Positions 1-27,853 of a stretch of 30,493 bases of DNA are shown piece by piece (position 1 is the stretch's first letter; each line of letters starts with the position of its first letter). The notes below the pieces were generated by a model. The model had not been told where the DNA came from. It worked only from the letters and a program-made list of their open reading frames with translations, and made no database searches. Source of the DNA: Candidatus Eiseniibacteriota bacterium (GTDB lineage Bacteria > Arandabacterota > Arandabacteria > JAGLYR01); NCBI GenBank assembly GCA_023132135.1, contig JAGLYR010000026.1, positions 1-30,493 of the forward strand. Direction: 5' to 3'. The position numbers were made by a program, and so were the translations under genes.

Positions 1-331
1 TCTGGCCGCATCGACCGAAGGCCTGGCCTTCAGTCTCCGAGGATCCACACCGGCTTCGACCCGCCTCGTGGGCGCCTGGCCGAACCCGTTCAACCCGACC
101 ACGGCTGTCCAGTACGAACTCCGCCATACCGAGCACGTGACCCTTCAGGTCTACGATGCGCAGGGACGGCTGGTACGGACGCTCGTGAATGAGACCATCA
201 ACGCCGGGAGCTACTCGGCCGTCTGGAACGGCAGGGACAGCAACGGCGTGGAGGTCTCCAGCGGCACCTACTTCGTGCGGATGCATACGAGCCGGTATGA
301 ATCCACAAGCAAGGTGGTGATGCTGAAGTAG
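1..331 (+). CDS. Secreted surface protein, C-terminal fragment with FlgD-like sorting domain (5' end outside window)
   Basis: The reading frame is open from base 2 to the TAG at 329-331, giving about 109 residues with the start outside the window. The visible part is the end of a cohesin-like segment (EGLAFSLRGSTP) followed by a complete FlgD-like / type IX-style sorting domain: LVGAWPNPFNPTT, then VYDAQGRLVRTL, WNGRDSNG, and SSGTYFVRMHTSRYES. It is almost the same as the C-terminus of the protein encoded at 595-4476, so this is an upstream paralogue with the same tail. By family knowledge such domains direct export across the outer membrane or surface anchoring. What the missing N-terminal part does cannot be said. 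Confidence 0.9.
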   Translation, partial: LAASTEGLAFSLRGSTPASTRLVGAWPNPFNPTTAVQYELRHTEHVTLQVYDAQGRLVRTLVNETINAGSYSAVWNGRDSNGVEVSSGTYFVRMHTSRYESTSKVVMLK

Positions 332-342
332 GAAATCCATTT

Positions 343-376
343 GGGTCATCGGGGGCCACAGAGCCCCCGATGACCC
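343..376 (+). terminator. Perfect 14-bp hairpin after the first surface-protein gene
   Basis: Bases 343-356 and 363-376 are perfect reverse complements (14 bp, GC-rich) around a 6-nt loop, starting 12 nt after the stop codon. No T-run follows, so it is either a terminator without a U-tract or a 3'-end stabilising hairpin. A similar hairpin follows the next surface gene at 4489-4520. Confidence 0.6.
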
Positions 377-594
377 GCTATCGGCGCGAAGGGAGGGGGG
401 GGGTGGCGAGCTGACCATTCACGTGCAGTCAGAGCACTCACCGCTGTGCTCTTGGAACACTGAATCCCCGAAGCGGTGGTCAAGATTGGACATCTTGCAT
501 CTCAGCTGATCGCTCCGTTAGGTACATCGTGGTGCAGGTATAGTGTAACCTGGAGGACACACCGGGTCGCAGGTGCAGGTAAGGAGGTGCGAAG
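377..594. other. Intergenic stretch before the beta-helix protein gene
   Basis: About 220 bases with no supported gene. It holds a G-run near 391-403, a TATAGT sequence at 539-544 that could be a -10 box but has no good -35 partner, a repeated GGTGCAGGTA (531-540 and again just before the ribosome binding site), and the strong ribosome binding site AAGGAGG at 581-587. Confidence 0.5.
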
Positions 595-3500
595 ATGAAG
601 TGCACAAGGATACCGTCGGTCCGAGCGTTTTTCGGAGTGGTTGCAGCGGTTTTGCTGCTATGGGGAGGGGTTGCAGAGGCTTCCTGGTTTACGTATCCGG
701 TGAGTGCTCTGTATGCCTCCTCCGACTTCGATACAGTGTGTTTCGGCCTCGCGACTCTCGATGGCCGGACAGACAACGGCACGTCCGTCGACTTTGAATT
801 CTCGGGAGTCACCTCTGGTGGATCCGGAGTGAAGGACGACTACGCTGTACTCACCGTCTACGGACAGACTGGAGCATCCGATTTCAGCGGCTTCACAGGT
901 GCCGCAATCCTGGTCGAGAACCTGGACGATGAGACTGTGAAGATGCACCTGTTTATGAACACGGGTTTCACGGGCCCCGCTGGTGTCCCCGCGAGTTGTT
1001 TGCAGAACGACACCTTCTGGGGAGGGCCGTGGTTTCCCATCCAACCAGGGGAGACGGTACTGCTCACCCTGGATTTTGGCAACGCCCAGGCTTGGAACCT
1101 CTCGGACAATCCTTCGCCCCACACTTGTGGTGTCAGTCCTACCTGTGGGGTCGGTAACTCTTGCATAAACGGCAACCAGTATGCAATCAACGCCTACGAT
1201 CAGACGGAGGTTTCAGGCATCGGATTCGAGGTTCTGAAGGAGTCGGGCGATGGAGACGCACTTGTACGCCTGATTCCCTGCCTAGCCCCGCCTGATGCCT
1301 ATGTTGACGGAAGCTGGACCGGTACTTCAGTCGGTGACCAAGTGTGGTTTGCAGGGCATCCGGCCACCATGGGATACGACGCATTCGACACCATCCAGGA
1401 CGGCATCGCCGGGGTCTCCGGCAGCACGGTCAACGTGGCGGCAGGCACCTACAACGAGCAGGTCCGCTTCTCCAAGGGTGCGACGGTCGTCGGAACTGGA
1501 ACGGTCCTGATAGATCCCAGCGGGGCACAGTTCGAGGGCCCGAAGGCGGGCGCTGACTGGGTCCGTTCGGCCGTCACCTTTGAGGCCGGCAGCAGCGGAG
1601 CCACGCTCGATAACGTCACCATCCAGAACAGCAACGCCAGCGATCTGAACGGGAATGCCGGAATCGAGGTGATCGATGGAAGCATCGACAACGTCACGAT
1701 CCAGAACGTGACAGTAAGTGGGGTCTCCGGCCACGGATTCGGATCCTACGACACGGATCACACCTGGCCACCCCCGTCAGGATGGCTCATCGACCACTGC
1801 CAGTTCTCGACATCGGCTACTGGTACCTGGTCCGGCATGCGTCCGCAGAACATGGACGATCTGACGATCCAGTATTGCGATATCGGCCCCACGAACTACG
1901 GAGGGATCCTCCTCATCAACACAAGCACGAGTGTGGTGGTCCAGTACAACACTGTACACAACACGGTCAGGGCCGGGATCCAAGTGGACTCCTACTGCAC
2001 CGAGACGGCTGACATTCTGTACAACGAGGTCTACGCCACCAACAGCGCCAGTGCAGTCGATTATGGAGACGTGCGCCTCTACGGACAGTACTTACCCGAT
2101 CCCCATGGCGGCGCCCCTGCTACTGTTACGATCCAGCGCAACGTCCTGCGCGACGGGTACAACGGCGTGTGCGTAAAAAACGGCCAGGACATCTCCACAC
2201 GAACTGTCACCGTCAAGTGGAACAGCATCACGAATCATACTAGCTACGGCGGTTACAATGGTGGAACAGGGACCCTCAACGCCTCCGTCAACTGGTGGGG
2301 CGCTGCGAGCGGTCCGGTCCATACCGGGAATCCCAGTGGGACCGGAGACGCCGTGAGCGACTACGTCGACTACGATCCGTGGATTGGCAAATCCGGTGGG
2401 GAGAACATCATCTGCGTGCCCGATCCCCAGGAGATCAGCCTTGCGGACCTCGTGGGCAGCAACTATGAGGATGACGTTGTTGTCCGCTACCTGGGCGGTG
2501 GAAGCGGAGCGGTCTACGGCTACTCCATCGAGGTGGAATGGAACGGCACCGTGATTTCGGCTGCTGCGGGTAATTTCCAGAGGCCGGCCTCGGGACCCTT
2601 CAGCACCGCGTCTTTGTTCCAAGTTATCCCCATGGCCTCCAACAAGGTCCGGATCGACTGTGCCATCGGCGGCGCCGATCCCGGGACCCTCGGACCGGAT
2701 GACCTCTTCCAGTGCACGTTCACGGCAGTCGGGACTCCGGACTATGCGACGAGCGATGTGGATATCACCATCCTGGCAGTGCGAGATAACAACAACCAGG
2801 CTCTGACCGGGTTCTACGAGGACGACGGAGAGGTGATCGTGGATCTGGTGGGTCCGTCGGTGACCGGCGTGGTCATAACCAATACCACACTCGCTCACAC
2901 CAACGACTACATCAAGGACACCGACAACGCGCACGTGTATGCCAACGTGACCGACGGTGGTCCCGGTGTCACCGTTACCGCGAACCTGAACAGCCTAGGT
3001 GGCGGCGCGGCAGTCCCGCCCGGAACCTTTGCCGGCAGCGATGCCGACTGGGACTACACCGTCAACACAGGGTCTGCGGTCGAGTCCAATGTCAATGTCA
3101 CCGTGACTGCGACGGACGGACTCGGAAACAGCAGCAGCGCCAGTGATGTTGACGGAATCATGCTCGACAACATCGCGCCGGCTGCCATCACAGGCTTCGA
3201 CGCCGAGCCGCATCACCAGCGGGTGGCTCTCTCATGGGATAATCCGAGCGGCTTGGACACGTACTACTACGGTGTCGTGGTGCGTTTCGATAGCAGTTCT
3301 GTTTACCCCGTCTACGGTAGTCATGGAATCTACCCTGCTGACGAGAGCGGCGGTGACGGTGATGCATACAACAACACGGGCGCAGTCACCGGCGGCGACC
3401 ACACCGTATCCAACCCGCGCAGTATCTACTACTACACGGCCTTTGCGTACGACTGGGCCATGAATCATGGTCCGGCCGATGGAGACGCACAGGATCGGGC

Positions 3501-4554: not shown

Positions 4555-5397
4555 ATGTTTGGGAGAATCGGCAGCTTGACAGGGGACCTATGGCCTCGAA
4601 GCACTTTGCTGTTGACCGTCGCGGTCGCTCTTATCTGTCTTCCGTCGCTGGTCGTGGCTGTCCCAACAGTCTACATCGACCCGGTCATCACCCAAGTCGA
4701 TGTGGGGGAGCAATTCGACGTGTCGATCATGATTAACGCAGACGTCGACACCATCGCCAACTTCCAGATCTTCGTAGAGTTCGATCCGGCAGTCCTGGAG
4801 TTCGTGAATGCCCTGGAGGGCTCATTGTACACGAACCTGCTGCCTGGGTTCTGGACCTGGTTTGGCGCCGAAGAGGAATCCCTTGGCACGTGGGAAGTCT
4901 TCGATATCGTCTTCCCTTCCGGCAGCTTCGTCATCGCACCGGGGGAGTTGGTGAGACTCCGATTCAATCCTATTGCCGAAGGATACTCCGAGCTTGACCT
5001 GGTATCTGTCGTTGTCACCGACATCGAGCGCTACCCCATCGAGGCACTGAGCTGGGATGACGGCGCAGTGTACGTCGGTCCCTTCTCTGGTGTCCCGGGT
5101 GATGCCCGCGGGCCAACCCGTTGGAATCTGGGCGATCCGTTTCCCAACCCATCGCGCGGGGCGACACGGATATCCCTCACCCGACCTATAGACGCAGCGA
5201 GCGAGGAATGTCACTTCGGCGTCTACGATGTCGAAGGCCGGATGGTGAGAGATCTGACGGACCTTCTCGGGAAGACGTCTGACCTGGCGTGGGACGGGCG
5301 TAGTCGCTTTGGCATCGGTGTGCCGTCCGGGGTGTACTTCTTTCGACTCGTGACCCCGGAAGGGGTGGCCACTCGAAAAGTCATCCTCGTGCGCTAG
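4555..5397 (+). CDS. Exported single-cohesin protein with sorting domain
   Basis: A 280-residue protein starting at an ATG 5 nt after GGAGAG. The signal peptide has its core at about residues 17-36 (LLLTVAVALICLPSLVVA). Residues about 38-178 form a cohesin-like domain: VGEQFDVSIMIN, FQIFVEFDPAVLEFV, and APGELVRLRFNPIAEGYSEL. Residues 192-280 are a divergent FlgD-like sorting domain (GDPFPNPSRGATRIS, VYDVEGRMVRDL, WDGRSRFG, PSGVYFFRLVT). It is the simplest cohesin-like protein here and lies among dockerin-like proteins, so it might act as a surface receptor for them. Cohesin folds also occur as general beta-sandwich modules, so binding is inference. Confidence 0.82.
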   Translation: MFGRIGSLTGDLWPRSTLLLTVAVALICLPSLVVAVPTVYIDPVITQVDVGEQFDVSIMINADVDTIANFQIFVEFDPAVLEFVNALEGSLYTNLLPGFWTWFGAEEESLGTWEVFDIVFPSGSFVIAPGELVRLRFNPIAEGYSELDLVSVVVTDIERYPIEALSWDDGAVYVGPFSGVPGDARGPTRWNLGDPFPNPSRGATRISLTRPIDAASEECHFGVYDVEGRMVRDLTDLLGKTSDLAWDGRSRFGIGVPSGVYFFRLVTPEGVATRKVILVR

Positions 5398-5483
5398 TTC
5401 GCACGAATTGAATCCAAGGATTGCTCCCGCGCATGCTGGCATACGGATCTGGGCGCTGCGGCGCAGCGTGGAGGTGTCTTCCA

Positions 5484-8400
5484 ATGTCCAAAGCCAAACC
5501 CATTCATGGTCGGTTCGTCATCGCCCTTGTGGCGGTCGCGTGGTTGTTCGCTCCTTCGGGAACCGACGCAACCGTTCGCCTGACGCCCTTCACAATCTCC
5601 ACCCCGTCGGTGGCTCCTCTTCCGGCGAGCAGTGATCCCATCAACTGCACCCAGTCGCAGACCTTGGGGTTCTTCTTCACACCGGATGCCGGAACGCCCG
5701 CTCTCAAGGGCTACTCCGTTCGGGTCCAGGCGGACAGCGAGCTGTCCTTTGATGACACGGATTTCACGGTCAACACACTTCCGTCCGGCGCGACCGTCCA
5801 GTACTACATCAACCATAATGCGAGCAATGACTGGACGATTGACTACGCCATCATGGGATCCACCTCCGGAATCACAACCGCCGAGGAACTCTTCTCCGTC
5901 GAATTCCACGCCGTGAGTGAGGGGTCGGGTGTGGTTTCCATCGCGAGCGCGACCTTCCGGGACCTCACCAACGAATCCTTCCCTGTCGACTACAGCGGCA
6001 CGGCAACGATCGTTGTGGATTGCAGCGCTCCCAGCGGGACGATGGTCATCAACAACGACGACACCTACACAAACTCCACCTCCGTCACACTCACGAGCAG
6101 CGTCTCCGATGGCGAGACTGACATGAGCGAGATGCGCTTCAGTAACGATGGCGGAAACACATGGCCCGAGGGTTGGGTTCCCTACGGGACATCTCACGCC
6201 TGGACTCTCACATCGGGTGACGGGACCAAGACGGTCACGGGCGAGTACAGCGACCTGGCCGGAAACGTCTTCAGTACGAGCGACGACATCATCCTGGATA
6301 CGTCCGGGCCCGACGCTCCCACGATGGACACCGAGCCGACATACACCGCGGGAACTTCAAATACGGTGAGTTGGAGTGACGAATCGGGAAGCGGTGCGGT
6401 GGCATACTACGCCGAATGCGCCACGGACGCAGGTTTCTCCAACGTTGTAGGCAATTCGGGATGGATCGCCGGTCAATCCCATGACTTCACCGGGCTAACG
6501 GACGGGCAGATGTACCACTATCGTGCGAGGGCTCGCGATGCTGCTTTGAACGAATCCGGCTGGTCGAATACCGTTTCCTCGACCCAGGACAACTCCATTC
6601 CCTCCTCTTCTGTGGAGGCGCTTCCAACGTACCAGACATCTCTGACCTTCGACGTCAGCTACTCGACTTCCGACGGCACGAGTGGTGTCGCCTCGGTGGA
6701 GCTGTTCTACAACGTGGACGGAGGGGCCTACAGCTCCTACGGGACCTTCACAAGCGGCCCTATCTCGTTCACCGCCGGCGGCGATGGAACCTACGGCTTC
6801 TACACGATCGCCACGGACAATGCCGGCAACGTGGAAGACCCGCCGGCGAGTCCGCCCGACGCAAGCACCATCGTGGACACCACGCCGCCCGATGTGCCGG
6901 ATATGACGGCCGAGCCCACCTTCACGGCGGGTACGAGCAACACGGTGTCCTGGACCGATGAATCGGGTAGTGGCGCAGTTTCCTACTACGCCGAGTGCGC
7001 GACCGACGCAGGATTCGCCAATGTCGTCGCCAATTCCGGGTGGATCCCGGGGCTCACCCACGATTTCACAGGTCTCGCGGACGGCCAGATCTATTACTAC
7101 CACGTCAAGGCCAGGGACGACGCGGGGAACGAGTGCGACTGCTCGAGCTCGGTCTCCTCGACCCAGGACAGCAGCGACCCGGCATCGAGCGTCGATGCTC
7201 TCCCGCCCTACCACGGGACGGTGACCTTCGACGTGCTCTACACGGCCAATGACGCCACCAGTGGTGTGGCTTCCGTGGAGCTCTTCTACAATTTCAACGG
7301 TGGAGGGTACAGCTCCTACGGGACCTTCGTCTCCAGTCCGATTTCCTTCACAGCAGGATCGGGTGACGGCGTATACGGTTTCTACACCATTGCCAACGAC
7401 AACGTCGGCAACGACGAAGATGCTCCGGGCGCGCCACCCGATGCCAGCACCGAGTTGGACACGTCCACACCGTCGAGTCCGACCATGGACCCCGAGCCCA
7501 CCTATACGGCGGGCACCAGCAACACCGTATCCTGGAGCACGGTCACGAAGGCCGCACCGGTGACTTATTATGCCGAGTGCGCCATGGACGCCGGGTTCAG
7601 CAACGTGGTGGGCAATTCCGGCTGGATCCCGGACACGTCTCACGAATTCACCGGCCTGGCGGATAACCAGATCTACTACTACCACATTAAGGCCAGGGAC
7701 GATGCGGAGAATGAGGGTGCATACTCGAGCTCCGTCTCTTCCACCCAGGACGATTCGAACCCCTACGGATCCCTGGCGATTGATGGTGGTGCGACACACA
7801 CGAACACGACGACGGTGACTCTCAACAACAGCGTCAGTGACGATGTCAGCGGCCTGCACGAGATGCGCTTCAAGAACGAGGTCGGCGGCGCCTGGTCCGG
7901 CTGGGAGGCCTACGCCTCGACACGGGCATGGACGCTGGATGCCGGTGATGGCACGAAGACCGTCTACGCCGAGCACAGTGACAACGTCGGGAATGTCTTG
8001 GCCACCAGCGATGACATCGTCCTCGATACCGGACCTCCGGGCGCCGTGAGCGGGATTTCGGTGTCACCGGGTCACAAGAAGGTGACCGTCGCGTGGGCGG
8101 ACCCGGGGGACAGCGACCTGGCCCAGATCGAGATCTGGCGCGCCGTGTGGCACGATGGATCCCTGAACTCGGTCTATCCTGAGTATGACGACGACCCCGG
8201 CAGTACGACCCCGACCCGTCCCGCCACTCGCGCACAGGCGGAGGCCAGCGCCGAATGGGCTCTCGTTGGAACGGCTAACCCCGGGGATGAGAGCCACGAA
8301 GACAACTTCGTCTCGGATGATCGCGGGATCTACTACTACGAGATCTTTGCCAAGGACCATGCCGGGAACTTCAGCAACCCGGCGATGAACAGCGACCGGG

Positions 8401-9416
8401 CTACAAACTACTGGCTGTGCGATGTGGATGTCGACACCGGCCCCGGTGGAAGCGACTACGACGGAGACGTCGACTTTGACGACGTCAACGTCCTCAGCGC
8501 CGCCTACTGGGGATCCAGCCCGCCCTCGCCACCGTCCTGGCCGCAGAACGAGTGTGACTTGGGACCCACCGATGACCACAGCGGCACCGGGATTCCCCTG
8601 ACCGACGACTACGTCGATTTCGAGGATTTGATGATCTACTCGCTGAACTACGGCGAGGTGAGTGCAAAGGACCCCGCGTATCGCCCCGTGCACCTGGCAG
8701 GACAGCCGGAATCCGGGAGACCCGTCCTGCGCCTCACGATCCTGCGCTCTTCAGAAACCGGTGAGGATATAACGGTGTCTCTCTCCCTGGGAGGAAACCG
8801 GGACACGGTCAAGGGCGCCAGTATGATCCTTCGCTATGACCCGGAGACCCTGGAACACTCCGAAACGATCCTCGCCCCGGCCCTCGCCGCGGCGGGACAC
8901 CGGGTCTTCATGCATACGGAGGAAATCCAGCTCGGTGAAGTCTGGCTGGACCTGGCAGTTCTGGGAACCGGAGAGGTCCTTCACAATTCAGGAGAGCTGG
9001 CCCGGATCAGGTTCGGAATCAAGGCCGAAGAAGACCCCGAAGTCTGTTTGGCAATGGTCAAGATGCGAGACGCAGCCAACGCCTGCATCTCGGCGGAGAT
9101 TGAGGATCCGGTCTGGAACCCCGGACCCTCCTCCCTCATCGAAACCCGAATCGTCGGTGCGTGGCCGAACCCCTTCAATCCGACGACGACCATCCAGTAC
9201 GAGCTCCGCCGGCCGGACCACGTGAGCCTGCGGGTCTACGACACGCGCGGGCGACTGGTCGCTATCCTTGTGGACGAGAGAATGGATGCCGGCTGCCATT
9301 CGGCCATCTGGAACGGCCGAGACGGTCACGGGTCTTCGGTCGGGAGCGGAATCTACGCGGTGAAAATGCAGTCGGGACAACATGAGTCCGTCACGAAGGT
9401 GGTCTTGCTCAAGTAA
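5484..9416 (+). CDS. Secreted Ig/FN3 repeat protein with dockerin-like and sorting domains
   Basis: A 1310-residue exported protein. I place the start at ATG 5484: GGAGGTG lies 7 nt upstream, and the protein then begins with a normal signal peptide (MSKAKPIHGRFVIALVAVAW). An in-frame ATG at 5421 would add 21 residues of poor signal-peptide character. Domains: cohesin-like N-terminal domain (about 33-175); Ig-like domain (182-275); three copies of an FN3-like unit beginning near residues 278, 470 and 665 (each with EPTYTAGTSNTVSW or a close variant, and YYAECA.DAGF), the first two alternating with a second beta-sandwich unit (FDVSYSTSDGTSGVASVELF); a second copy of the Ig-like domain (about 760-850); FN3-like domain (853-973); dockerin-like segment (976-1060, DYDGDVDFDDVNVLSAAYW and VDFEDLMIYSLNYG); cohesin-like domain (1075-1210); sorting domain (1222-1310). 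No catalytic domain is visible, so a structural, adhesive or scaffold role is likely. Confidence 0.82.
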   Translation: MSKAKPIHGRFVIALVAVAWLFAPSGTDATVRLTPFTISTPSVAPLPASSDPINCTQSQTLGFFFTPDAGTPALKGYSVRVQADSELSFDDTDFTVNTLPSGATVQYYINHNASNDWTIDYAIMGSTSGITTAEELFSVEFHAVSEGSGVVSIASATFRDLTNESFPVDYSGTATIVVDCSAPSGTMVINNDDTYTNSTSVTLTSSVSDGETDMSEMRFSNDGGNTWPEGWVPYGTSHAWTLTSGDGTKTVTGEYSDLAGNVFSTSDDIILDTSGPDAPTMDTEPTYTAGTSNTVSWSDESGSGAVAYYAECATDAGFSNVVGNSGWIAGQSHDFTGLTDGQMYHYRARARDAALNESGWSNTVSSTQDNSIPSSSVEALPTYQTSLTFDVSYSTSDGTSGVASVELFYNVDGGAYSSYGTFTSGPISFTAGGDGTYGFYTIATDNAGNVEDPPASPPDASTIVDTTPPDVPDMTAEPTFTAGTSNTVSWTDESGSGAVSYYAECATDAGFANVVANSGWIPGLTHDFTGLADGQIYYYHVKARDDAGNECDCSSSVSSTQDSSDPASSVDALPPYHGTVTFDVLYTANDATSGVASVELFYNFNGGGYSSYGTFVSSPISFTAGSGDGVYGFYTIANDNVGNDEDAPGAPPDASTELDTSTPSSPTMDPEPTYTAGTSNTVSWSTVTKAAPVTYYAECAMDAGFSNVVGNSGWIPDTSHEFTGLADNQIYYYHIKARDDAENEGAYSSSVSSTQDDSNPYGSLAIDGGATHTNTTTVTLNNSVSDDVSGLHEMRFKNEVGGAWSGWEAYASTRAWTLDAGDGTKTVYAEHSDNVGNVLATSDDIVLDTGPPGAVSGISVSPGHKKVTVAWADPGDSDLAQIEIWRAVWHDGSLNSVYPEYDDDPGSTTPTRPATRAQAEASAEWALVGTANPGDESHEDNFVSDDRGIYYYEIFAKDHAGNFSNPAMNSDRATNYWLCDVDVDTGPGGSDYDGDVDFDDVNVLSAAYWGSSPPSPPSWPQNECDLGPTDDHSGTGIPLTDDYVDFEDLMIYSLNYGEVSAKDPAYRPVHLAGQPESGRPVLRLTILRSSETGEDITVSLSLGGNRDTVKGASMILRYDPETLEHSETILAPALAAAGHRVFMHTEEIQLGEVWLDLAVLGTGEVLHNSGELARIRFGIKAEEDPEVCLAMVKMRDAANACISAEIEDPVWNPGPSSLIETRIVGAWPNPFNPTTTIQYELRRPDHVSLRVYDTRGRLVAILVDERMDAGCHSAIWNGRDGHGSSVGSGIYAVKMQSGQHESVTKVVLLK
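6316..7760 (+). repeat. In-frame tandem FN3-like/beta-sandwich module repeats within the 1310-aa protein
   Basis: Units begin near 6316, 6892 and 7477, so the period is about 576-585 bases. The first two are complete two-domain units and the third contains the FN3-like half. Signature stretches recur in each: EPTYTAGTSNTVSW (or EPTFTAG...), NVV.NSGWI, and SVSSTQD. At the DNA level they are similar but not identical, so the duplication is not recent. Confidence 0.8.
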
Positions 9417-9440
9417 GAAACGATGCCCGAGGGGACCACG

Positions 9441-12400
9441 ATGAAATCTTCAGTTGGATACATCCTTCTCCTGTCGATCGCCATTCTTGTCCCCGGACCG
9501 GCGGCAGAGGTTCGCTCGCCCGCGTCCATCGAACTCGTTCCGGCCATTGACGTCACGACTTGGCCGGATGCTCCCTTCCGTTGGCGGGACATTGCGACCA
9601 ATGGATACGCGCCATCCTATCAGGACGCGTACACATACGGGGATGCTTCGATCACAGTGACGTTCGACTCTGAGGCGGATTCTTCCTTCGCAGGCCACTT
9701 GTCCGCGACCAACCTGAAGCCGAACTTCGCCTACCAGATGAAGCTGGCCGGGAAACCGTCGGGGCTGTGGGGACCCGCGGGGGACGACAGCACAAACGAG
9801 CGGATCGGGTACGCAGGACGCTGGTGGCGGGTCCAACCGAACCCCGGAAACAGCAACGACGCAGACTACGAGGCCCACCACGACGACCCTGCGTATATCT
9901 ACGAAGGGTACCTGCTCTTCGATTTCTTCCTGACCGACCGGTTCGGAAACGCGGAGGTCGATTTCGCCACGGAGAGCAGCTTCCATGTTCTCTGGTGGGA
10001 ACACCAGCGAACGCCGCAGGCGTGCGACAGCCCGGTCAAGTGGCGAACCGTCACCGGCGAAGAGGGTGACGACGCGTACGCCATGGATCTCGTTCCCACC
10101 GACATCGGTGTCTATGCAGAGATCGAGAGGCTATGCTATGGAGAGACCCGACTTCCCCCCGGTCTCTACAACTGCAGGTTCGTCCTGACCGAGGAGAGCT
10201 TCCACCAGTCCGGGGGGCCCGCCAATCCCGGTTGGGTGAGCGTCAGCGGGAATCAGTTCCAATTGAACGGTGGAGCCTTCCACTACGCGGGAACAAACTG
10301 CTACTACCTGATGCACTATGCCGCGAACGCGGGGACCCGCTCCTACGTGGACGAGGTGCTGGAAGAGTCGAAGGAAATGGGTCTCAACGTCGTCCGGACG
10401 TGGGGCTTTTCCGATGGCGGAGCCAGCGCCCTGCAAACCGAACCCGGCGTATACAACGAGACCGTCTTTCAGGGACTGGACTACGTACTCTACAAGGCCG
10501 GGCAGCTGGGACTCCACGTGCTCCTTCCTTTCGTTAACAATTGGGACGACTACGGGGGGATGAACCAGTATGTCCAGTGGACGCAGGGCGCGGCTCCTCC
10601 CGCCGACAGCTTCGTGACCGTCAACGGAACTCACTTCGAGGTGGCCGGTCTGCCGTACTACTACGCAGGCGCCAATTTCTGGTGTGGACTGAATCTCGGA
10701 TCCGCCGGTCCGGGCGGAGACCGCTCCAGACTCGAGCGAGAGCTGGACCGTTTTGTGTCGTTGGGCATCAACAACCTTCGCGTCATGGCCGGCAGCGAGG
10801 GTCCCGACACGGAACCCTGGCGGATGGTGCCTTCCCTTCAGACCTCACCGGCCGTGTACGATTCCCTGGTTCCGGACGGTCTCGACTATCTTCTGGCGGA
10901 GATGAAGGAACGGGAGCTGCGCGCGGTCATGTGCCTCAACAACTTCTGGCCGTGGTCAGGCGGAATGGCTCAGTACGTCAGTTGGAACGGCGGCGGGTCC
11001 ATTCCCTACCCACCACCGGAGCCGGGGGGAGACTGGAACGCGTATCAGGATTACGCGTCGGACTTCTATTCAAACGCGGGGGCAAAGGAGGATTTCCAGG
11101 ATTACATCAGTTTCATCATCAATCACGTGAATCCGTACACCGGCTTGGCCTACAAGGACGATCCCACGGTCATGAGCTGGGAGCTGGGGAATGAGCCCCG
11201 GGGATTCAACAACAACGCCACGGCCTTCAACCAGTGGATCGACGATACGGCGGCCTACATCAAGTCCCTGGACTCAGAGCATCTGGTGACGACCGGCTGT
11301 GAGGGAGATACCCCGTGGCCCTCGTGGAACGGGCTGGACTTTACGGCCAATCACAACGGCCCCGACATCGACTACACGACCATGCACATCTGGCCGCAGA
11401 ACTGGGGATGGTACGACCCCTCCAATCCGGGGGGCACCTATGCCTCGGCCGAGGCCAATGCCCGCTCGTATTTCAACACTCATGAGACGAAGGCATCGAC
11501 GCTGGGCAAGCCAATGGTTCTCGAAGAATTCGGGCTGGCCCGGGATGGTGGTAGCTACGATCCTGCCTCGACCACCGTATGGAGAGATACATTCCTTGCA
11601 GCCATGTACGACGAAGTCTATGCCTCGGCATCCTCCGGCGGACCCGCCTGCGGAGACAACTTCTGGGCCTGGGGAGGGGAGGGACGGCCACTGGTACCCT
11701 ACGGCAGCTACTGGAACGCCGGTGATCCGTGGATCGGTGACCCCCCCCATGAACACCAGGGTTGGTACAGCGTCTACGACATCGATTCCACGACCCTTTC
11801 GGTTCTATCTTCCCACGCCCAGAACATGGCCTCCCTCGTGGGCGCCGCCACGGGTCACGACGATTTCTACACCTATCCCCAGTGCAAACAGTGGTACAAA
11901 GACCATATCTCCGCCGTCCTCAATCGCGTGAACACGTTCAACGGCATCACCTACAAGGACGACCCCACCGTGTTTGCCTGGGAGCTGGCGAACGAGCCCC
12001 GCTGCACATCCGACGTCTCCGGGAACACACTTCAGGGTTGGATCGAGGAGATGGCGGCCTACATCAAGAGCCTGGATTCGCAGCATATGGTAACCACGGG
12101 TTCGGAAGGCTTCTACGGACCGTCGGGGCCGTCCCACAATCCCTACGGTTGGTTCGCCAACCAGGGCGTGGACTTTATCCCAAACCACCAGCCGGCGAGT
12201 ATTGACTTCGGGTGTTTCCACGTCTGGCCCGATCACTGGAGTCTGAACTACGCTCAGTCGATGGCTTGGGCGGATGATCACATTGAGGACAGCGAGTCTC
12301 TACTGGGGAAACCGGTGATTCTCGAGGAGTTCGGGAAACACCGACCCCTGAGCACCCGAGACCAGTTCTACCAGGGCTGGTACGACGCCTTCTTCACCGA

Positions 12401-14291
12401 TGCGGAGGCCGGCAAGGCTGCGGGTGGGACGAACTTCTGGATTCTATATCACGACGCGTATCCGGACTATGACGGTTTTGGGGTCTACTATCCCGCGGAC
12501 ACCAGCACCGTCAACATCATCATGACCGAAGCCCGAAGGATCCGGGACCTGTCGCAGCCGGTCCCCAACGAGGGCAACTGGGCATCCGCAGCCGTCTGCG
12601 ACACCCTCTTCTTCGAGATCACCGGAGAAGTCCTGAGTCCCAGCGTGGCCCAGGTTTCGATCGTGAACGTGTCTCTCTCCCACACGGACGACTATGTGAA
12701 GGATGGTGATGAGGTCACGGTTGCCGCGACCGTGACCAGCCTCGATCCGATGTTCGGAATCGATGACATCAGGGCCGATCTCCAAGGGTTGGGTGGCGGA
12801 GCGTCGGAACCACCGGACGCATTCGTGGACGATGTTGCCACGTGGAGCGTTTCCAGCGTCGCGTGCAGTCCTTCGGACGGGATAGTCACGGTGACCGTCA
12901 CCGCGACCGATCCAATACTGAAGGCCACGGCCCACGGGTACGATCAGATCACGGCGGACAACACGGCCCCGGCTGCTGTGAGCGGACTCGGCGGCGCCCC
13001 CCGGCACGAGGCAGTCGCCCTGTCATGGGATGACCCGACCAGTCTGGATACTAACTACTACGGGATCATGATTCGCTATGCCGGCAGTGGCGACTATCCA
13101 GTGTATGGATCGCCGGGGGCCTATCCGACGACACCCCTTGGGGGCGACGGGCAGGCGTTCGACGGAACCGGTCTGCAGACGAGCGCCATGCACACGATCT
13201 CCGGCCGGGACATTCTGTACTACACGGCGTTCGCGTACGACTGGGCCCTGAACTATGGACCGGCGGGCGGCGGCGGCCAGGACCGCTCGACCAACTACTG
13301 GCTCGGAGACGTGGCCGGGAGCTTTTCCCCCGGCAGTCAGGACTACGATGGCCTCGTCGATGCCAAGGACATCAACTCATTGAGCGCCGCGTACTGGAGC
13401 CCGTCCCCTCTTCTTTCCCCCCACAACGAGTGTGATGTCGGTCCGACAGACGACCACAGCGGGTTCGGAATCCCTGAACCGGACGATCTCGTCGACTTCG
13501 AGGACCTGATGATCTTCTCCCTCACGTACGGTGAAGTAAGCAAGGGCTCGGCGCCTCCTTTTGCGAAGTTGACCGGATCTCAGGAGTCCGGTCCGCATGT
13601 CCTCCGCCTGATAGCTGCAACGGAAGGACCACGGGACGGGTGTCTGGGAGTCACTCTGGGACTTGGCGGGAATCGGGATGAACTCAAGGGAGCCAGCGTG
13701 ATCCTGATCTACGATCCATCCACGCTGGACTACGTCCGGACCCGCCTCAGCCCTGCGCTGGAGGCCGCCGGCGAACGCATCTTCTTCTGCGCCGCCGAGA
13801 CCGGACCCGGAGAGATCCGGCTGGACCTGGCCGTCCTTGGAGCCGGGCGGACGATTCTCGGCACGGGCGATGTGGCCCACCTTGAGTTCCATACTGCAAA
13901 CGGAGGGGCGTTGTCCATCCACATCGAGGATGCGGAACTCCGCAGCGCAGGCAACGCGCGTCTTCCCTGGGTGGCCGAGGATCTGTCCCTTCGGATTTCT
14001 GCGTCCCTTCCACCGGCAACTCGGCTGCTGGGAGCATGGCCGAATCCGTTCAACCCGACCACCACGGTCGCCTACAATATCTGCGATCCCCAGCATGTGG
14101 TACTTCAAGTCTATGATGCGGAGGGACGTCTCGTTCGGACACTGGTGGATGAAAGGAGAACCCCCGGTTTCCACTCAGTGATCTGGGACGGGCGGGATTG
14201 CAACGGGCATGAGGCGAGCAGTGGTGTCTATTGGGTCCGAGTGCGCGCGGGGGTCTACGACTCCGGGTGCAAGATCGTCCTCTTGAAGTGA
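9441..14291 (+). CDS. Secreted beta-mannanase-type protein with one GH5 domain nested in another, plus dockerin-like and sorting domains
   Basis: A 1616-residue exported protein. ATG 9441 follows GAGGGG and begins a signal peptide (MKSSVGYILLLSIAILVPGP); an in-frame ATG at 9423 has weaker context. Residues 25-260 are an unassigned domain (FAYQMKLAGKP, GRWWRV). Residues 265-385 are the front half of a GH5 barrel resembling subfamily 7 endo-mannanases (NVVRTWGFSDG, LLPFVNNWDDYGGMNQYV). Residues 386-800 are a complete second GH5 domain: acid/base Glu585 in SWELGNEPRG, nucleophile Glu696 in VLEEFG. Residues 801-1040 complete the first barrel: GHDDFYTYPQCKQWYKDH, Glu852 in AWELANEPRC, Glu963 in ILEEFG. 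Both catalytic pairs are intact. Then follow Ig-like, FN3-like, dockerin-like (DYDGLVDAKDINSLSAAYW; VDFEDLMIFSLTYG), cohesin-like and sorting domains. Likely role: hydrolysis of mannan-type polysaccharide at or outside the cell surface. It lies 24 nt after the previous gene, probably in the same operon. Confidence 0.88.
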   Translation: MKSSVGYILLLSIAILVPGPAAEVRSPASIELVPAIDVTTWPDAPFRWRDIATNGYAPSYQDAYTYGDASITVTFDSEADSSFAGHLSATNLKPNFAYQMKLAGKPSGLWGPAGDDSTNERIGYAGRWWRVQPNPGNSNDADYEAHHDDPAYIYEGYLLFDFFLTDRFGNAEVDFATESSFHVLWWEHQRTPQACDSPVKWRTVTGEEGDDAYAMDLVPTDIGVYAEIERLCYGETRLPPGLYNCRFVLTEESFHQSGGPANPGWVSVSGNQFQLNGGAFHYAGTNCYYLMHYAANAGTRSYVDEVLEESKEMGLNVVRTWGFSDGGASALQTEPGVYNETVFQGLDYVLYKAGQLGLHVLLPFVNNWDDYGGMNQYVQWTQGAAPPADSFVTVNGTHFEVAGLPYYYAGANFWCGLNLGSAGPGGDRSRLERELDRFVSLGINNLRVMAGSEGPDTEPWRMVPSLQTSPAVYDSLVPDGLDYLLAEMKERELRAVMCLNNFWPWSGGMAQYVSWNGGGSIPYPPPEPGGDWNAYQDYASDFYSNAGAKEDFQDYISFIINHVNPYTGLAYKDDPTVMSWELGNEPRGFNNNATAFNQWIDDTAAYIKSLDSEHLVTTGCEGDTPWPSWNGLDFTANHNGPDIDYTTMHIWPQNWGWYDPSNPGGTYASAEANARSYFNTHETKASTLGKPMVLEEFGLARDGGSYDPASTTVWRDTFLAAMYDEVYASASSGGPACGDNFWAWGGEGRPLVPYGSYWNAGDPWIGDPPHEHQGWYSVYDIDSTTLSVLSSHAQNMASLVGAATGHDDFYTYPQCKQWYKDHISAVLNRVNTFNGITYKDDPTVFAWELANEPRCTSDVSGNTLQGWIEEMAAYIKSLDSQHMVTTGSEGFYGPSGPSHNPYGWFANQGVDFIPNHQPASIDFGCFHVWPDHWSLNYAQSMAWADDHIEDSESLLGKPVILEEFGKHRPLSTRDQFYQGWYDAFFTDAEAGKAAGGTNFWILYHDAYPDYDGFGVYYPADTSTVNIIMTEARRIRDLSQPVPNEGNWASAAVCDTLFFEITGEVLSPSVAQVSIVNVSLSHTDDYVKDGDEVTVAATVTSLDPMFGIDDIRADLQGLGGGASEPPDAFVDDVATWSVSSVACSPSDGIVTVTVTATDPILKATAHGYDQITADNTAPAAVSGLGGAPRHEAVALSWDDPTSLDTNYYGIMIRYAGSGDYPVYGSPGAYPTTPLGGDGQAFDGTGLQTSAMHTISGRDILYYTAFAYDWALNYGPAGGGGQDRSTNYWLGDVAGSFSPGSQDYDGLVDAKDINSLSAAYWSPSPLLSPHNECDVGPTDDHSGFGIPEPDDLVDFEDLMIFSLTYGEVSKGSAPPFAKLTGSQESGPHVLRLIAATEGPRDGCLGVTLGLGGNRDELKGASVILIYDPSTLDYVRTRLSPALEAAGERIFFCAAETGPGEIRLDLAVLGAGRTILGTGDVAHLEFHTANGGALSIHIEDAELRSAGNARLPWVAEDLSLRISASLPPATRLLGAWPNPFNPTTTVAYNICDPQHVVLQVYDAEGRLVRTLVDERRTPGFHSVIWDGRDCNGHEASSGVYWVRVRAGVYDSGCKIVLLK
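10596..11840 (+). other. Inserted GH5 domain inside the outer GH5 barrel
   Basis: This 415-codon in-frame segment splits the outer GH5 barrel after its GGMNQYVQW motif and before DDFYTYP, positions that are close together in ordinary GH5_7 mannanases. Gly-Ala-Ala codons stand on both sides (10587-10595 and 11841-11849), consistent with a short duplication at the junction. From 10611 to the end it aligns without gaps to 14396-15625 of the next gene, at a constant offset of 3785 bases. Confidence 0.85.
11538..11673 (+). repeat. Near-identical 136-bp patch shared with 15323-15458
   Basis: Compared with 15323-15458 the two 136-bp stretches differ at one base (11579 A versus 15364 G). By eye the 100 bases before differ at about 25 positions, and the roughly 80 bases after differ at about 20. 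The sharp edges suggest gene conversion between the two GH5 copies. Confidence 0.85.
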
Positions 14292-14317: not shown

Positions 14318-15940
14318 ATGAGACCCTTGCTTGTGCTTTGTGCCCTGGTTCTCTGCATCACTCCCTGTGGAGCGTCCCGGGCCGAGAACACCGGCTTCGT
14401 TCAGACCGACGGGGTGCAGCTCACGCTGGGCGGGGAGCCATACTACTACGTTGGGACGAACTATTGGTACGGGCTCAACCTGGCGTCCCTGGGCCCGGGT
14501 GGAGACCGCGATCGCCTTCACCGTGAGCTGGACCGCCTGTGGTCTCTGGGAATCCGCAATCTGAGAGTCATGGCCGGTTCGGAAGGTCCGGACACGGAAC
14601 CCTGGCGGATGGTCCCCTCGCTCCAGATCGATCCCGGAGTGTACAACCCGCAGGTCCTGGACGGCCTAGATTATCTCCTGTCGGCCATGAACGATCGCAA
14701 CCTGCGCGCGGTCATGTGTTTGACCAACTTCTGGCCGTGGTCCGGCGGGATGGCCCAGTATGTGAGTTGGAACGGCGGGGGTGCGATTCCCTATCCCCCA
14801 CCCGAACCTGGAGGGGACTGGAACGTCTACCAGGACTACGCCTCGGATTTCTATTCCAATGCGGGGGCCAAGCAGGACTTTCGGGACCACATCGCCTTTC
14901 TCGTGAATCGGGTCAATCCGTATACGGGTCTCGCCTACAAGGACGATCCGACGATCATGACCTGGGAGCTGTGCAATGAGCCCCGGGGGTTCCACAACAA
15001 CGCCGCCGCCTTCAACCAGTGGATCGATGATACGGCTGCCTATATCAAGTCCCTGGATTCGAATCACCTGGTGACCACCGGCTGCGAAGGGGACACACCG
15101 TGGCCTTCGTGGAACGGATTGGATTTCGACGTGAACCACGATGGCCCGGATATCAACTACGCAACCATTCACATCTGGCCGCAGAACTGGGGCTGGTACG
15201 ACCCATCGAACCCCGGCGGGACGTATGACCCGGCTGAGGCCAATGCCCGATCGTATTTCAGCGACCACGAGGCCGAGGCGGTGACTCTGAACAAGCCCAT
15301 GGTCCTCGAGGAATTCGGATTAGCCCGGGATGGTGGTAGCTACGATCCTGCCTCGACCACCGTGTGGAGAGATACATTCCTTGCAGCCATGTACGACGAA
15401 GTCTATGCCTCGGCATCCTCCGGCGGACCCGCCTGCGGAGACAACTTCTGGGCCTGGGCCGGAGAGGGTCGGCCTCTTGAGCCCTGCGGGAGCTACTGGG
15501 ACCCCGGAGATCCGTGGATCGGCGACCCGCCCCACGAACACCAGGGTTGGTACAGCGTGTACGACTTGGATGGGACGACCCTGACCGTTCTGGAATCGCA
15601 CGCCGATGACATGCTTGCGCTGATGCCGTGGACGGCTATCGAGGAGGAGCGCCCGTCCCTTGGAGAGCAGCGCACCGGGCACCTTGGGGTATTCCCGTCA
15701 CCTAGTTCGGGGCAGGTTTCCATCTGTGGAAGACTGCCCAAGGGTTTTGACAATGGAAAGGTGGAGATCTATGACCTCAGGGGTCGGCGTGTCGGGAGCT
15801 ACCGCTGCGCGGGCCCCCTGATCAGCATCTCCTGGCCTGGAGACGTCGAAGGCTTGGATGGACTAAGTTCAGGGGTCTATTTCGCTCGACTGTCCTGGGG
15901 TCAGGACTCCGTGTCGACCAAGTTCGTGTACTTGAAGTAG
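14318..15940 (+). CDS. Secreted GH5 beta-mannanase-type enzyme with sorting domain
   Basis: A 540-residue exported glycoside hydrolase. The ATG is 5 nt after AAGGAG, 26 nt after the previous stop, so it is probably in the same operon. The signal peptide is short (MRPLLVLCALVLCITPCGAS). The GH5 catalytic domain covers about 27-435: NLRVMAGSEGPDTEPWRM, NFWPWSGGMAQYVSWNGG, acid/base Glu221 in TWELCNEPRGF, HIWPQNWGWYDPSNPGGTY, and nucleophile Glu332 in VLEEFGLARDG. The motif set resembles mannan endo-1,4-beta-mannosidases (GH5_7), but substrate is inferred. Residues about 455-540 are a divergent FlgD-like sorting domain (VFPSPSSGQVSI, IYDLRGRRVGSY, SSGVYFARLSW). It lacks the Ig/dockerin/cohesin array of its neighbours. 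It is a full-length paralogue of the GH5 domain nested in the preceding protein. Confidence 0.9.
   Translation: MRPLLVLCALVLCITPCGASRAENTGFVQTDGVQLTLGGEPYYYVGTNYWYGLNLASLGPGGDRDRLHRELDRLWSLGIRNLRVMAGSEGPDTEPWRMVPSLQIDPGVYNPQVLDGLDYLLSAMNDRNLRAVMCLTNFWPWSGGMAQYVSWNGGGAIPYPPPEPGGDWNVYQDYASDFYSNAGAKQDFRDHIAFLVNRVNPYTGLAYKDDPTIMTWELCNEPRGFHNNAAAFNQWIDDTAAYIKSLDSNHLVTTGCEGDTPWPSWNGLDFDVNHDGPDINYATIHIWPQNWGWYDPSNPGGTYDPAEANARSYFSDHEAEAVTLNKPMVLEEFGLARDGGSYDPASTTVWRDTFLAAMYDEVYASASSGGPACGDNFWAWAGEGRPLEPCGSYWDPGDPWIGDPPHEHQGWYSVYDLDGTTLTVLESHADDMLALMPWTAIEEERPSLGEQRTGHLGVFPSPSSGQVSICGRLPKGFDNGKVEIYDLRGRRVGSYRCAGPLISISWPGDVEGLDGLSSGVYFARLSWGQDSVSTKFVYLK
15323..15458 (+). repeat. Near-identical 136-bp patch shared with 11538-11673
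   Basis: Partner of the patch in the preceding gene, with one mismatch. It begins just after the nucleophile motif and ends in the FWAW codons near the barrel's last strand. Confidence 0.85.
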
Positions 15941-15965: not shown

Positions 15966-16517
15966 CTACAAGCCCTTGAGCTTGACTCGCAGGCTGAGAC
16001 CGGGGTCCGCTACACCCTCAGGGAGCTCCCCGGTGGCGTAGAATCGCAGGTCTTGAACCCCTCCCCGCCCCGTCCCGGCAAGTAGGCCGTCTCGGCCTTG
16101 GATTATGCAGACGCTCACCTGTGTTTCGTCCGCTTCCGTCAACACACACGTGACTCCATCGGCAGGCACCTCAACCGCGTTCGGGGCCAGGAAGAGAGCC
16201 TCAACGCGCAGATGCCATTCGGGGTTGTTGGTCTGCACCTCCACAGATACCGTGTCGGTCCGAAACCGGCCCTCCACATCCAGAGCGTGAACATCAACCA
16301 CATACTCGGTGCGAGGCAGGAAGATGACCGTGGGAAGCGCAGCGGATGCAGAGACACTGTTCTCCCGAGAGATGGGCCTCACGCCGCGACCCAAGTCGAC
16401 CTCCGCCGGCGGCGGTCCGTCCGCCCCTCGACATCCAACGATCAGATACAAGAGGCTCAACATCGCTGCGACGATGCGGAAGGGGCTCTTCATGCTCAAT
16501 TTCGCGGGTAGACTCAC
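15966..16517 (-). CDS. Putative lipoprotein, last gene of the secretin cluster
   Basis: A 183-residue protein with a lipoprotein-type signal (LLYLIVGC, Cys29), so probably a membrane-anchored periplasmic protein. The rest looks like a beta-rich domain (FLPRTEYVVDVHALDVEGRF, VSVEVQTNNPEWHLRVEALF, and a C-terminal LSLRVKLKGL). I do not recognise a family. The GTG start at 16517 overlaps the stop of the secretin gene by 4 bases, suggesting translational coupling. An ATG at 16493 would give a shorter 175-residue form with the lipobox Cys at position 21 and is also plausible; neither has a strong ribosome binding site. The coupling suggests a role with the secretin, possibly as a pilotin or accessory protein, but that is inference. 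Confidence 0.7.
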   Translation of the reverse strand: MSLPAKLSMKSPFRIVAAMLSLLYLIVGCRGADGPPPAEVDLGRGVRPISRENSVSASAALPTVIFLPRTEYVVDVHALDVEGRFRTDTVSVEVQTNNPEWHLRVEALFLAPNAVEVPADGVTCVLTEADETQVSVCIIQGRDGLLAGTGRGGVQDLRFYATGELPEGVADPGLSLRVKLKGL

Positions 16518-18157
16518 AACAGGTCAAACTCTTCGTAGGGGATCATCAGATAGGGAGTGATAAGGATCACGACTTCGGTTTCGACGGTTTCGGTGACGGT
16601 GTGGCCAAAAAGTCGTCCCAGCACAGGGATATCGCCCAAGTATGGGATGCGGTTTTCTTCTTTCCTTTCCTGCCGGTTTCGAAGCCCGCCGATAACGATG
16701 GTCTCCCCATTCATGACACGGATGCGGGTACTTACAGAACGTACGCTGGTTACAGGAAGGTCGCTCAGCCCGGTGGCAACCACATCGCTGACCTCGGTCT
16801 CGATATCGCTGGTAATTTCAGCCGAAGCCCCCACGTAAGGGGTAATCTTGAGGGTGATCCCCGTCGCGATCTTCTCCAGAGTGAAATAGGAGAAGGTGAC
16901 TGATCCCTGGAGCAACGTGAAGAACGCTTCCCTCGCAATCCGAATTTCCGCCGCATGCCCTTCCGTGGTTGCCACCCGAGGGTTGGCCCGTATGTGGAGT
17001 TTGCCCTTCTGGGCCAGGCCGCGAATCGTGGCTCTCAAGTCCATCACCGACTTGATTCTTGTTAACCCTGCGACGAACAGTGAATCAAACGCGGCGGGCG
17101 CGAGTTTCGCCACCCTGAACGTCTGGTCTTCCCCACCACTGTCCATCCACGACCAATCGACACCGAGACTTCTCCGCACATCGGATCTCATCTCGACGAC
17201 CATTGCATCGATCATGATCTGGGGACTTGGAAAATCCAACCCCGCAAGGTCATCCTCGAGAGCCTGGATGATGTTCCTCGGAGCCGTGACCGTAAGGGTA
17301 TTGGTTTCCCCATCCACGCGAAGGTAGTCCATATAGAAGCTGGGGAGCATTCTGAAGGTTTCCTGAGCAGTCCGGTAACGGGGCTTGATTTGCCTGGTCT
17401 CGGTCAAGAGGGGGTAGGACGGGCTCTCCTTGATGGGGGCTCCGACCAGGTAGTAGTCCCTGGTCTTCTGGAATGTGAGACCAAGAGGAGAGAGAAGCCT
17501 CTCCAGTGCGTTCTCAAGAGATACGTCCCTTAGCTCGGCCGTGACGTATCCCTGGACCATGGCATCCGGTACGATGGACACGCCTGTCTGAGCGGAAATG
17601 TCCATCAGCGCTTGCCGGATGTCCGTCTCGTAGAAGACGTTCGTAACCAGGGGGCCCTGTTCTCCGGTACCTGCGCCCCCGTTCCACGCGGCCGCAGATG
17701 GATGGCTCACGCGCTCGCCGGGCGAAGCATCGGAGTCCATTTCGGGAGCGATTCCGGCCGCAGCGATCGCCACCCTGCACTCCTCTTCCTCCTCCGCCAG
17801 AGTCGGAAACTTGAACGGGCTTCTGGGATAGTACTTTCTCAGTAACGAATAGCAGCGCGCCGCCCTCAGGGGGTCGCCCATCCCCAAGCGCGCCGTACCC
17901 AGCAGATACAGCACCTCATCCATCCGATCCACCGCTCTGCCCTGCTGGCCGACGGACCGGAGCAGATCTGCTGCCTCTGCATAGGCGCCCTGTTCCAGGA
18001 GGAGCCTCGATTTCAGGATGGAGGTTTCCGCCAGGTCATAGGGAAGAGCGGTTCCTGGATCGGATTCCAGACGCCCGTGCGTGGACGCACATGACAGGCA
18101 GAAGCCCAGACAGAGAATGGAGATTTGTGCTCTCAAGCACGAATAGCGGAACTTCAT
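16514..18157 (-). CDS. TPR-containing secretin (type II/III/IV pilus-type outer-membrane channel family)
   Basis: A 547-residue protein with an N-terminal signal (ISILCLGFCLSCAS, possibly a non-standard lipobox). Residues about 40-115 look like TPR helices (LLLEQGAYAEAADLLRSVG, LYLLGTARLGMGDPLRAARC). Residues about 172-240 form an STN/N0-like domain (NVFYETDIRQALMDISAQTG, LENALERLLSPLGLTF). Residues 253-308 are an N1-like domain (NTLTVTAPRNIIQALEDDL). The secretin domain runs from about 310 to 540, with hallmark sequences MIDAMVVEMRSD, NGETIVIGGL, RIPYLGDIPVLGRLFG and EVVILITPYLM. Secretins form multimeric gated pores in the outer membrane. The start follows GGGAG by about 10 nt. It lies 3 nt after the beta-sandwich gene and overlaps the lipoprotein gene, so these three are clearly one operon. 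No ATPase or inner-membrane platform is visible nearby. Confidence 0.9.
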   Translation of the reverse strand: MKFRYSCLRAQISILCLGFCLSCASTHGRLESDPGTALPYDLAETSILKSRLLLEQGAYAEAADLLRSVGQQGRAVDRMDEVLYLLGTARLGMGDPLRAARCYSLLRKYYPRSPFKFPTLAEEEEECRVAIAAAGIAPEMDSDASPGERVSHPSAAAWNGGAGTGEQGPLVTNVFYETDIRQALMDISAQTGVSIVPDAMVQGYVTAELRDVSLENALERLLSPLGLTFQKTRDYYLVGAPIKESPSYPLLTETRQIKPRYRTAQETFRMLPSFYMDYLRVDGETNTLTVTAPRNIIQALEDDLAGLDFPSPQIMIDAMVVEMRSDVRRSLGVDWSWMDSGGEDQTFRVAKLAPAAFDSLFVAGLTRIKSVMDLRATIRGLAQKGKLHIRANPRVATTEGHAAEIRIAREAFFTLLQGSVTFSYFTLEKIATGITLKITPYVGASAEITSDIETEVSDVVATGLSDLPVTSVRSVSTRIRVMNGETIVIGGLRNRQERKEENRIPYLGDIPVLGRLFGHTVTETVETEVVILITPYLMIPYEEFDLL

Positions 18158-27796: not shown

Positions 27797-27853
27797 TCAG
27801 GCTGGGTTTTGTCTGCCGAAAATCACCTAACATGAAACGCAAGGAGGAAATTG

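Follow-up and report, generated by a model that had tools for sequence, protein, structure and literature searches.

A complete exo-mannosidase-type GH5_7 barrel nested inside an endo-mannanase-type GH5_7 barrel in a predicted secreted protein of uncultured bacteria

Can one glycosidase barrel be carried whole inside the barrel of a homologous glycosidase, with the catalytic residues of both retained? The question is raised by a single open reading frame of 1622 aa (9423..14291, + strand) in a 30,493-nucleotide stretch of DNA from an uncultured Candidatus Eiseniibacteriota bacterium, the whole of which is referred to here as the window. A preliminary description had proposed that this frame encodes the front of one GH5 barrel (A), an entire second GH5 barrel (B) and then the back of A. 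The frame runs without a break, and G+C content is uniform over the nested-gene region. The protein probably starts at its second methionine, M7 (codon 9441), with the signal peptide MKSSVGYILLLSIAILVPGPAA, called by eye, and we infer that the product is secreted. Upstream of the catalytic region lies an N-terminal domain of ~230 aa (9519..10208, + strand) with no Pfam match, and downstream lies a C-terminal part (12561..14291, + strand) made up of an Ig/fn3-like stretch, dockerin-like repeats and a cohesin-like stretch, all three judged by eye, and a FlgD_ig / T9SS-type sorting tail (aa 1558-1609). Pfam assigns two stretches of the protein to GH5 (Cellulase, PF00150).

Barrel A, of endo-mannanase-like GH5_7 type, is encoded in two separated parts. 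A1 (aa 268-386; 10224..10580, + strand) spans β1 to β3 plus the first part of the β3-α3 loop and ends in GGMNQYVQW, and A2 (aa 812-1046; 11856..12560, + strand) begins with HDDFYTYP and supplies α3 and β4 to α8. Between them stands B (aa 397-806; 10611..11840, + strand), a complete GH5_7 barrel of the CmMan5A exo-β-mannosidase type, joined to A1 by the entry linker TQGAAPPADS (aa 387-396; 10581..10610, + strand) and to A2 by the exit linker GAATG (aa 807-811; 11841..11855, + strand). When the protein was compared with PDB sequences by phmmer, residues 5-120 of the mannanase chain 8gf3 matched residues 271-388 and residues 121-349 matched 809-1043, with no template residue absent or repeated, and the CmMan5A exo-mannosidase 1uuq, almost entire, covered residues 390-797 (E 2e-104). 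The mannanase template thus splits exactly around the 1uuq-like barrel, and other templates split likewise between aa 388 and 809. The insert, at ~410 aa, is larger than its host of ~355 aa and ~32% identical to it. The catalytic domains are not contiguous, as they would be in an end-to-end fusion, because B splits A; nor is the insert a non-catalytic binding module, since B is a full GH5 barrel with both catalytic glutamates and with its own β3-α3 loop unbroken (GGMAQYVSWNGGG...).

In A, the acid/base E858 (11994-11996) follows β4 in an NE motif and the nucleophile E969 (12327-12329) lies on β7 in an EFG motif; the corresponding residues of B are E591 (11193-11195) and E702 (11526-11528). The order, the points at which A is cut and resumed, and the intact loop of B all agree with the preliminary description, whose catalytic residues (852 and 963 in A, 585 and 696 in B) are these same glutamates counted from M7 and whose joins, at 10596 and 11840, adjoin the two linkers.

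An order of this kind could be produced by faulty assembly or binning between two similar copies of B: the window is a single contig (C179) in a MAG of 345 contigs, and a separate gene for a B-type enzyme with its own sorting tail (14318..15940, + strand; 540 aa), 82% identical in DNA to the nested B, lies ~2.5 kb away. Both joins are in frame, however, and the two copies differ too much to be mistaken for each other. Scanning 84,980 species genomes yielded 32 related loci, and ORF analysis and alignment of these recovered A1-B-A2 with an identical breakpoint in three further MAGs, one from candidate division LCP-89 (L011, on a 151-kb contig) and two from Candidatus Eiseniibacteriota (L012 and L013). 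An artefact is therefore exceedingly improbable, and misassembly is ruled out in practice by the recurrence of the order in three other genomes. The GH5-in-GH5 order exists, and it is a real architecture rather than a product of chance or of assembly, because the same nesting recurs in three other uncultured bacteria of two further candidate phyla.

The three additional nested copies are 66-69% identical to the window protein (67% for L013). In all nested copies A stops after GGMNQY(V/I)xW and restarts at HDDFY; in the L012 copy the contig ends after the first 12 residues of A2, and both pairs of catalytic glutamates are retained in L011 and L013, that is, in every complete nested copy. The architecture covers three phylum-level groups, represented in the collection by 8 genomes from the phylum of the window, 39 from that of L011 and 47 from that of L013; none of the other genomes among the 8 from the window's phylum has the nested order. 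Loci from Phycisphaerales, Cyclobacteriaceae and Acidobacteria led to three other phyla with ~1,180 genomes in all; A- or B-type relatives are present in 78 of these, none of them nested among the matches listed, and a search of viral contigs found no relatives.

The components also occur in other arrangements. In six genomes (L014, L015, L037, L042, G301 and G311) barrel A is intact, and, as the preliminary description had anticipated for ordinary enzymes, GGM(N/D)QYVxW continues directly into HD(D/H)FY within a few residues. Of these, L014 encodes B followed by an intact A, end to end in a single ORF. In the Krumholzibacteriota genome L015, a B gene follows an uninterrupted A gene whose product carries, ahead of A, the same ~230-aa domain as the window protein; with its insert taken out, the window locus would be expected to have this layout. 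Three others (L016, G291 and G293) have a B-type gene and no full-length A match. In a Ruminococcus MAG, two adjacent GH5_7-like genes stand in tandem (L040:5548-10357), and window A and B each match both. The intact A-type mannanase of G301 (L061) has ~45 extra aa after the nucleophile strand, and the β7-α7 loop is thus another insertion-accepting loop of GH5_7-type mannanases.

Whether the separated parts of A form one barrel was addressed with an AlphaFold2 model of the 779-aa region, built from a 10-row alignment (pLDDT 82.7, pTM 0.71). With Foldseek on its own, the alignments of the A templates were long and broken (rmsd ~24 Å); VIA-align resolved them. The endo-mannanase 9m20 superposes on model residues 3..778 over 357 residues (1.8 Å, Z 50.9, 42% identity), and these residues come from A1 and A2 jointly, while 1uuq superposes on residues 128..538 over 402 residues (1.9 Å, Z 54.6, 39% identity). 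A second AlphaFold model, with L013 as target (pLDDT 81.1, pTM 0.75), again has two barrels, with 3pzn placed on 1..773 (325 residues, 2.0 Å) and 1uuq on 131..541. In the predicted structures, A1 and A2 close one complete barrel and B is a second complete barrel leaving A from its β3-α3 loop, which is the outcome for which structure prediction had been proposed as a check.

The models also bear on how the two barrels are arranged. In the window model, β3 (98-102) and then a short helix (112-119) come before the insert and α3 (552-566) comes after it, which puts the insert in the β3-α3 loop on the catalytic face of A; the template loop there is short, so B must enter and leave at nearby points. 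The ends of a TIM barrel lie on its bottom face, and the cleft of B is therefore likely to open away from A, its active site probably facing outwards. The loop that carries B opens with NNWDDYGG, and the equivalent segment of the mannanase GmMAN19-1, to within 1-2 residues in numbering, contains W118, D119 and F120, which line subsites +1 and -3 to -5 (PMC12512182). This equivalence would place B at the rim of the A cleft. The earlier suggestion that B lies next to the cleft of A thus holds for topology, in that B leaves at the cleft rim; the active site of B itself probably faces away.

The assignment of activities follows from comparison with characterized GH5_7 enzymes. Barrel A has the fold and catalytic glutamates of GH5 subfamily 7 and resembles the endo-β-mannanases GmMAN19-1 (9m20), BlMan5_7 (8gf3) and tomato LeMAN4a (1rh9) in these features, in an NNW..GG.NQYV.W-type motif and in a short β8-α8 loop. 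The β3-α3 loop of those enzymes reaches (D)DFY/F within a few residues, whereas that of A carries a second enzyme. Barrel B has the fold and sequence of CmMan5A and, like the exo-β-mannosidases of Cellvibrio mixtus (CmMan5A, 1uuq) and Rhizomucor miehei (4lyp), a long exo loop; these enzymes are separate proteins, and stand-alone B-type relatives occur in many phyla, but B lies within the chain of another enzyme. Exo action in GH5_7 is explained by how long three loops are (PMC3526467), and residues 378-412 of CmMan5A form a steric barrier (PMC6160142). From the β8 Trp onwards, B has 49 aa and CmMan5A 48, as against 29 in A and 33 in the endo-mannanase 8gf3, and a GDPP(H/Q)E.QG.Y motif is common to B and CmMan5A. 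In aligned length B matches the loop that blocks the minus subsites beyond -1 in CmMan5A, a loop modelled in B with low confidence (pLDDT ~50, model residues 487-499). Because the full-length exo loop is found in B and is absent from A, barrel A most likely acts as an endo-mannanase and barrel B as an exo-mannosidase, and the protein is likely to function as an endo/exo pair. Taken as a whole, it is probably a secreted two-site mannan degrader, in which an exo-β-1,4-mannosidase (B) is inserted in the β3-α3 loop of an endo-β-1,4-mannanase (A), both of GH5_7 type.

Domain B of pyruvate kinase and domain B of α-amylase (GH13) are inserted in the β3-α3 loop, the same loop as here, but neither is a TIM barrel or a second enzyme. 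Internal carbohydrate-binding modules (CBMs) interrupt the catalytic domains of GH10, GH13/SusG, GH26 (GH26-CBM112) and GH148 enzymes (cases cited in PMC13357471); these inserts are likewise intercalated in a catalytic domain, but they are non-catalytic, whereas the insert described here is catalytic, homologous to its host and larger. The internal glycoside hydrolase modules described so far being CBMs (PMC13357471), one of the two barrels might be turning into a binding or structural module. Both glutamates, the β2 Arg, the β6 His and the β8 Trp are nevertheless retained in both A and B of the window protein, and L011 and L013 likewise retain the two glutamate pairs, so that decay of either barrel into a pseudo-enzyme is very unlikely. 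Bifunctional GH5 enzymes of the end-to-end kind have been described (PMC3526467; CbCel9B/Man5A, PMC4892530); CbCel9B/Man5A and L014 have two catalytic domains per secreted chain, as here, but consecutive rather than nested. In agreement with the preliminary description, which knew of no GH5-in-GH5 architecture, neither a glycosidase within a glycosidase nor a TIM barrel within a homologous TIM barrel was found in the literature searched, which takes in only part of the journals. New relative to that description are that the nesting is common to four genomes and that the pair looks like an endo-acting (A) and an exo-acting (B) enzyme.

The nested gene is one of four consecutive genes for secreted proteins with FlgD_ig / T9SS-type tails (595-4476, 4555-5397, 5421-9416 and 9423-14291). 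Pfam cohesin matches are found in 595-4476 (E 3e-8) and 4555-5397 (E 3e-5), while 5421-9416 and 9423-14291 show, by eye, repeats of dockerin-like type and stretches resembling cohesins; a possible cellulosome-like assembly in this uncultured phylum is worth a look. The contig that encodes these sorting-tail proteins also has a gingipain-type C25 peptidase gene (27851-30493) and a secretin gene (16514-18157, - strand).

The preliminary description took the origin of B to be visible in the gene just downstream. The two are indeed similar (81% identical in protein), and, apart from sorting-tail matches, the genome has no further relative of this kind at E 1e-5. In the best tree, however, the nested B of the window does not group with the downstream gene, and enforcing that grouping gave a p-AU of 0.08. 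The downstream gene is 73-76% identical to the nested B of other phyla, and those nested B are 72-73% identical among themselves. On these comparisons, derivation of B from the downstream gene is neither shown nor excluded.

The history of the insertion itself can be approached from the A barrels. A loop of the form W-S-x-T-A-(S/T)-x-H-D is common to uninterrupted A of separate lineages (L014, L015, L037, L042 and G311) and is expected to be the ancestral state, and the linkers differ among nested copies. The A tree spreads the nested copies over three positions: the window; L011, near L014, L037 and L042; and L012 with L013, near G301 and G311. A single clade of nested A gave a p-AU of 0.004-0.005 (0.046 for A1 and 0.16 for A2 when the halves were treated separately), and a single clade of nested B was not rejected (p-AU 0.23). 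These trees, built on 10-31 rows, disfavour a single insertion passed down vertically with the A gene, as a lead drawn from few rows; further leads are repeated insertion or a single insertion moved by recombination, and loss may also have occurred.

How the two barrels might cooperate can be outlined from the predicted arrangement. A would make internal cuts in mannan or glucomannan chains. Two short linkers would fix B at the rim of the catalytic face of A, where it would take mannose off the new non-reducing ends, the double tether keeping it near the site where fresh ends arise. This does not imply that product passes straight from one site to the other, given that B has its ends on its bottom face and a cleft that probably opens outwards; closeness alone, with no direct hand-over, would be the likelier mode. 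Nesting need not aid catalysis, because removal of the internal module from GH26-CBM112 changed no kinetic parameter significantly (PMC13357471). The architecture could accordingly be real but neutral, the loop tolerating B while the barrels work independently with no gain over a linear fusion or neighbouring genes. This reading draws on that same CBM112 result, on TIM barrels being reported as preferred insertion hosts (PMC13114784) and on related genomes that hold A and B as neighbours (L015) or as a linear B-A fusion (L014). The retention of all catalytic residues in nested copies at 62-69% overall identity, and the presence of the nested state in several separate A lineages, speak against it, although neither is proof of a benefit, and we consider neutrality possible but somewhat doubtful. 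The contrary proposal, that the same exo barrel entered the same endo loop more than once, separately or via recombination, since nesting outperforms fusions and separate enzymes, is put forward tentatively and with no greater expectation.

If that proposal is true, this would be a first instance of an endo/exo machine, kept by selection, in which one catalytic barrel sits inside another that is homologous to it. The insert is homologous to its host, larger, apparently active and retained across several candidate phyla. The GH5 β3-α3 loop can accept a whole second enzyme, a property useful to enzyme design, and separate genes, linear fusion and nested forms provide a natural comparison set in which the benefit of nesting is directly testable. 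For the bacteria that carry it, nesting could couple the cutting of mannan chains with the trimming of their ends.
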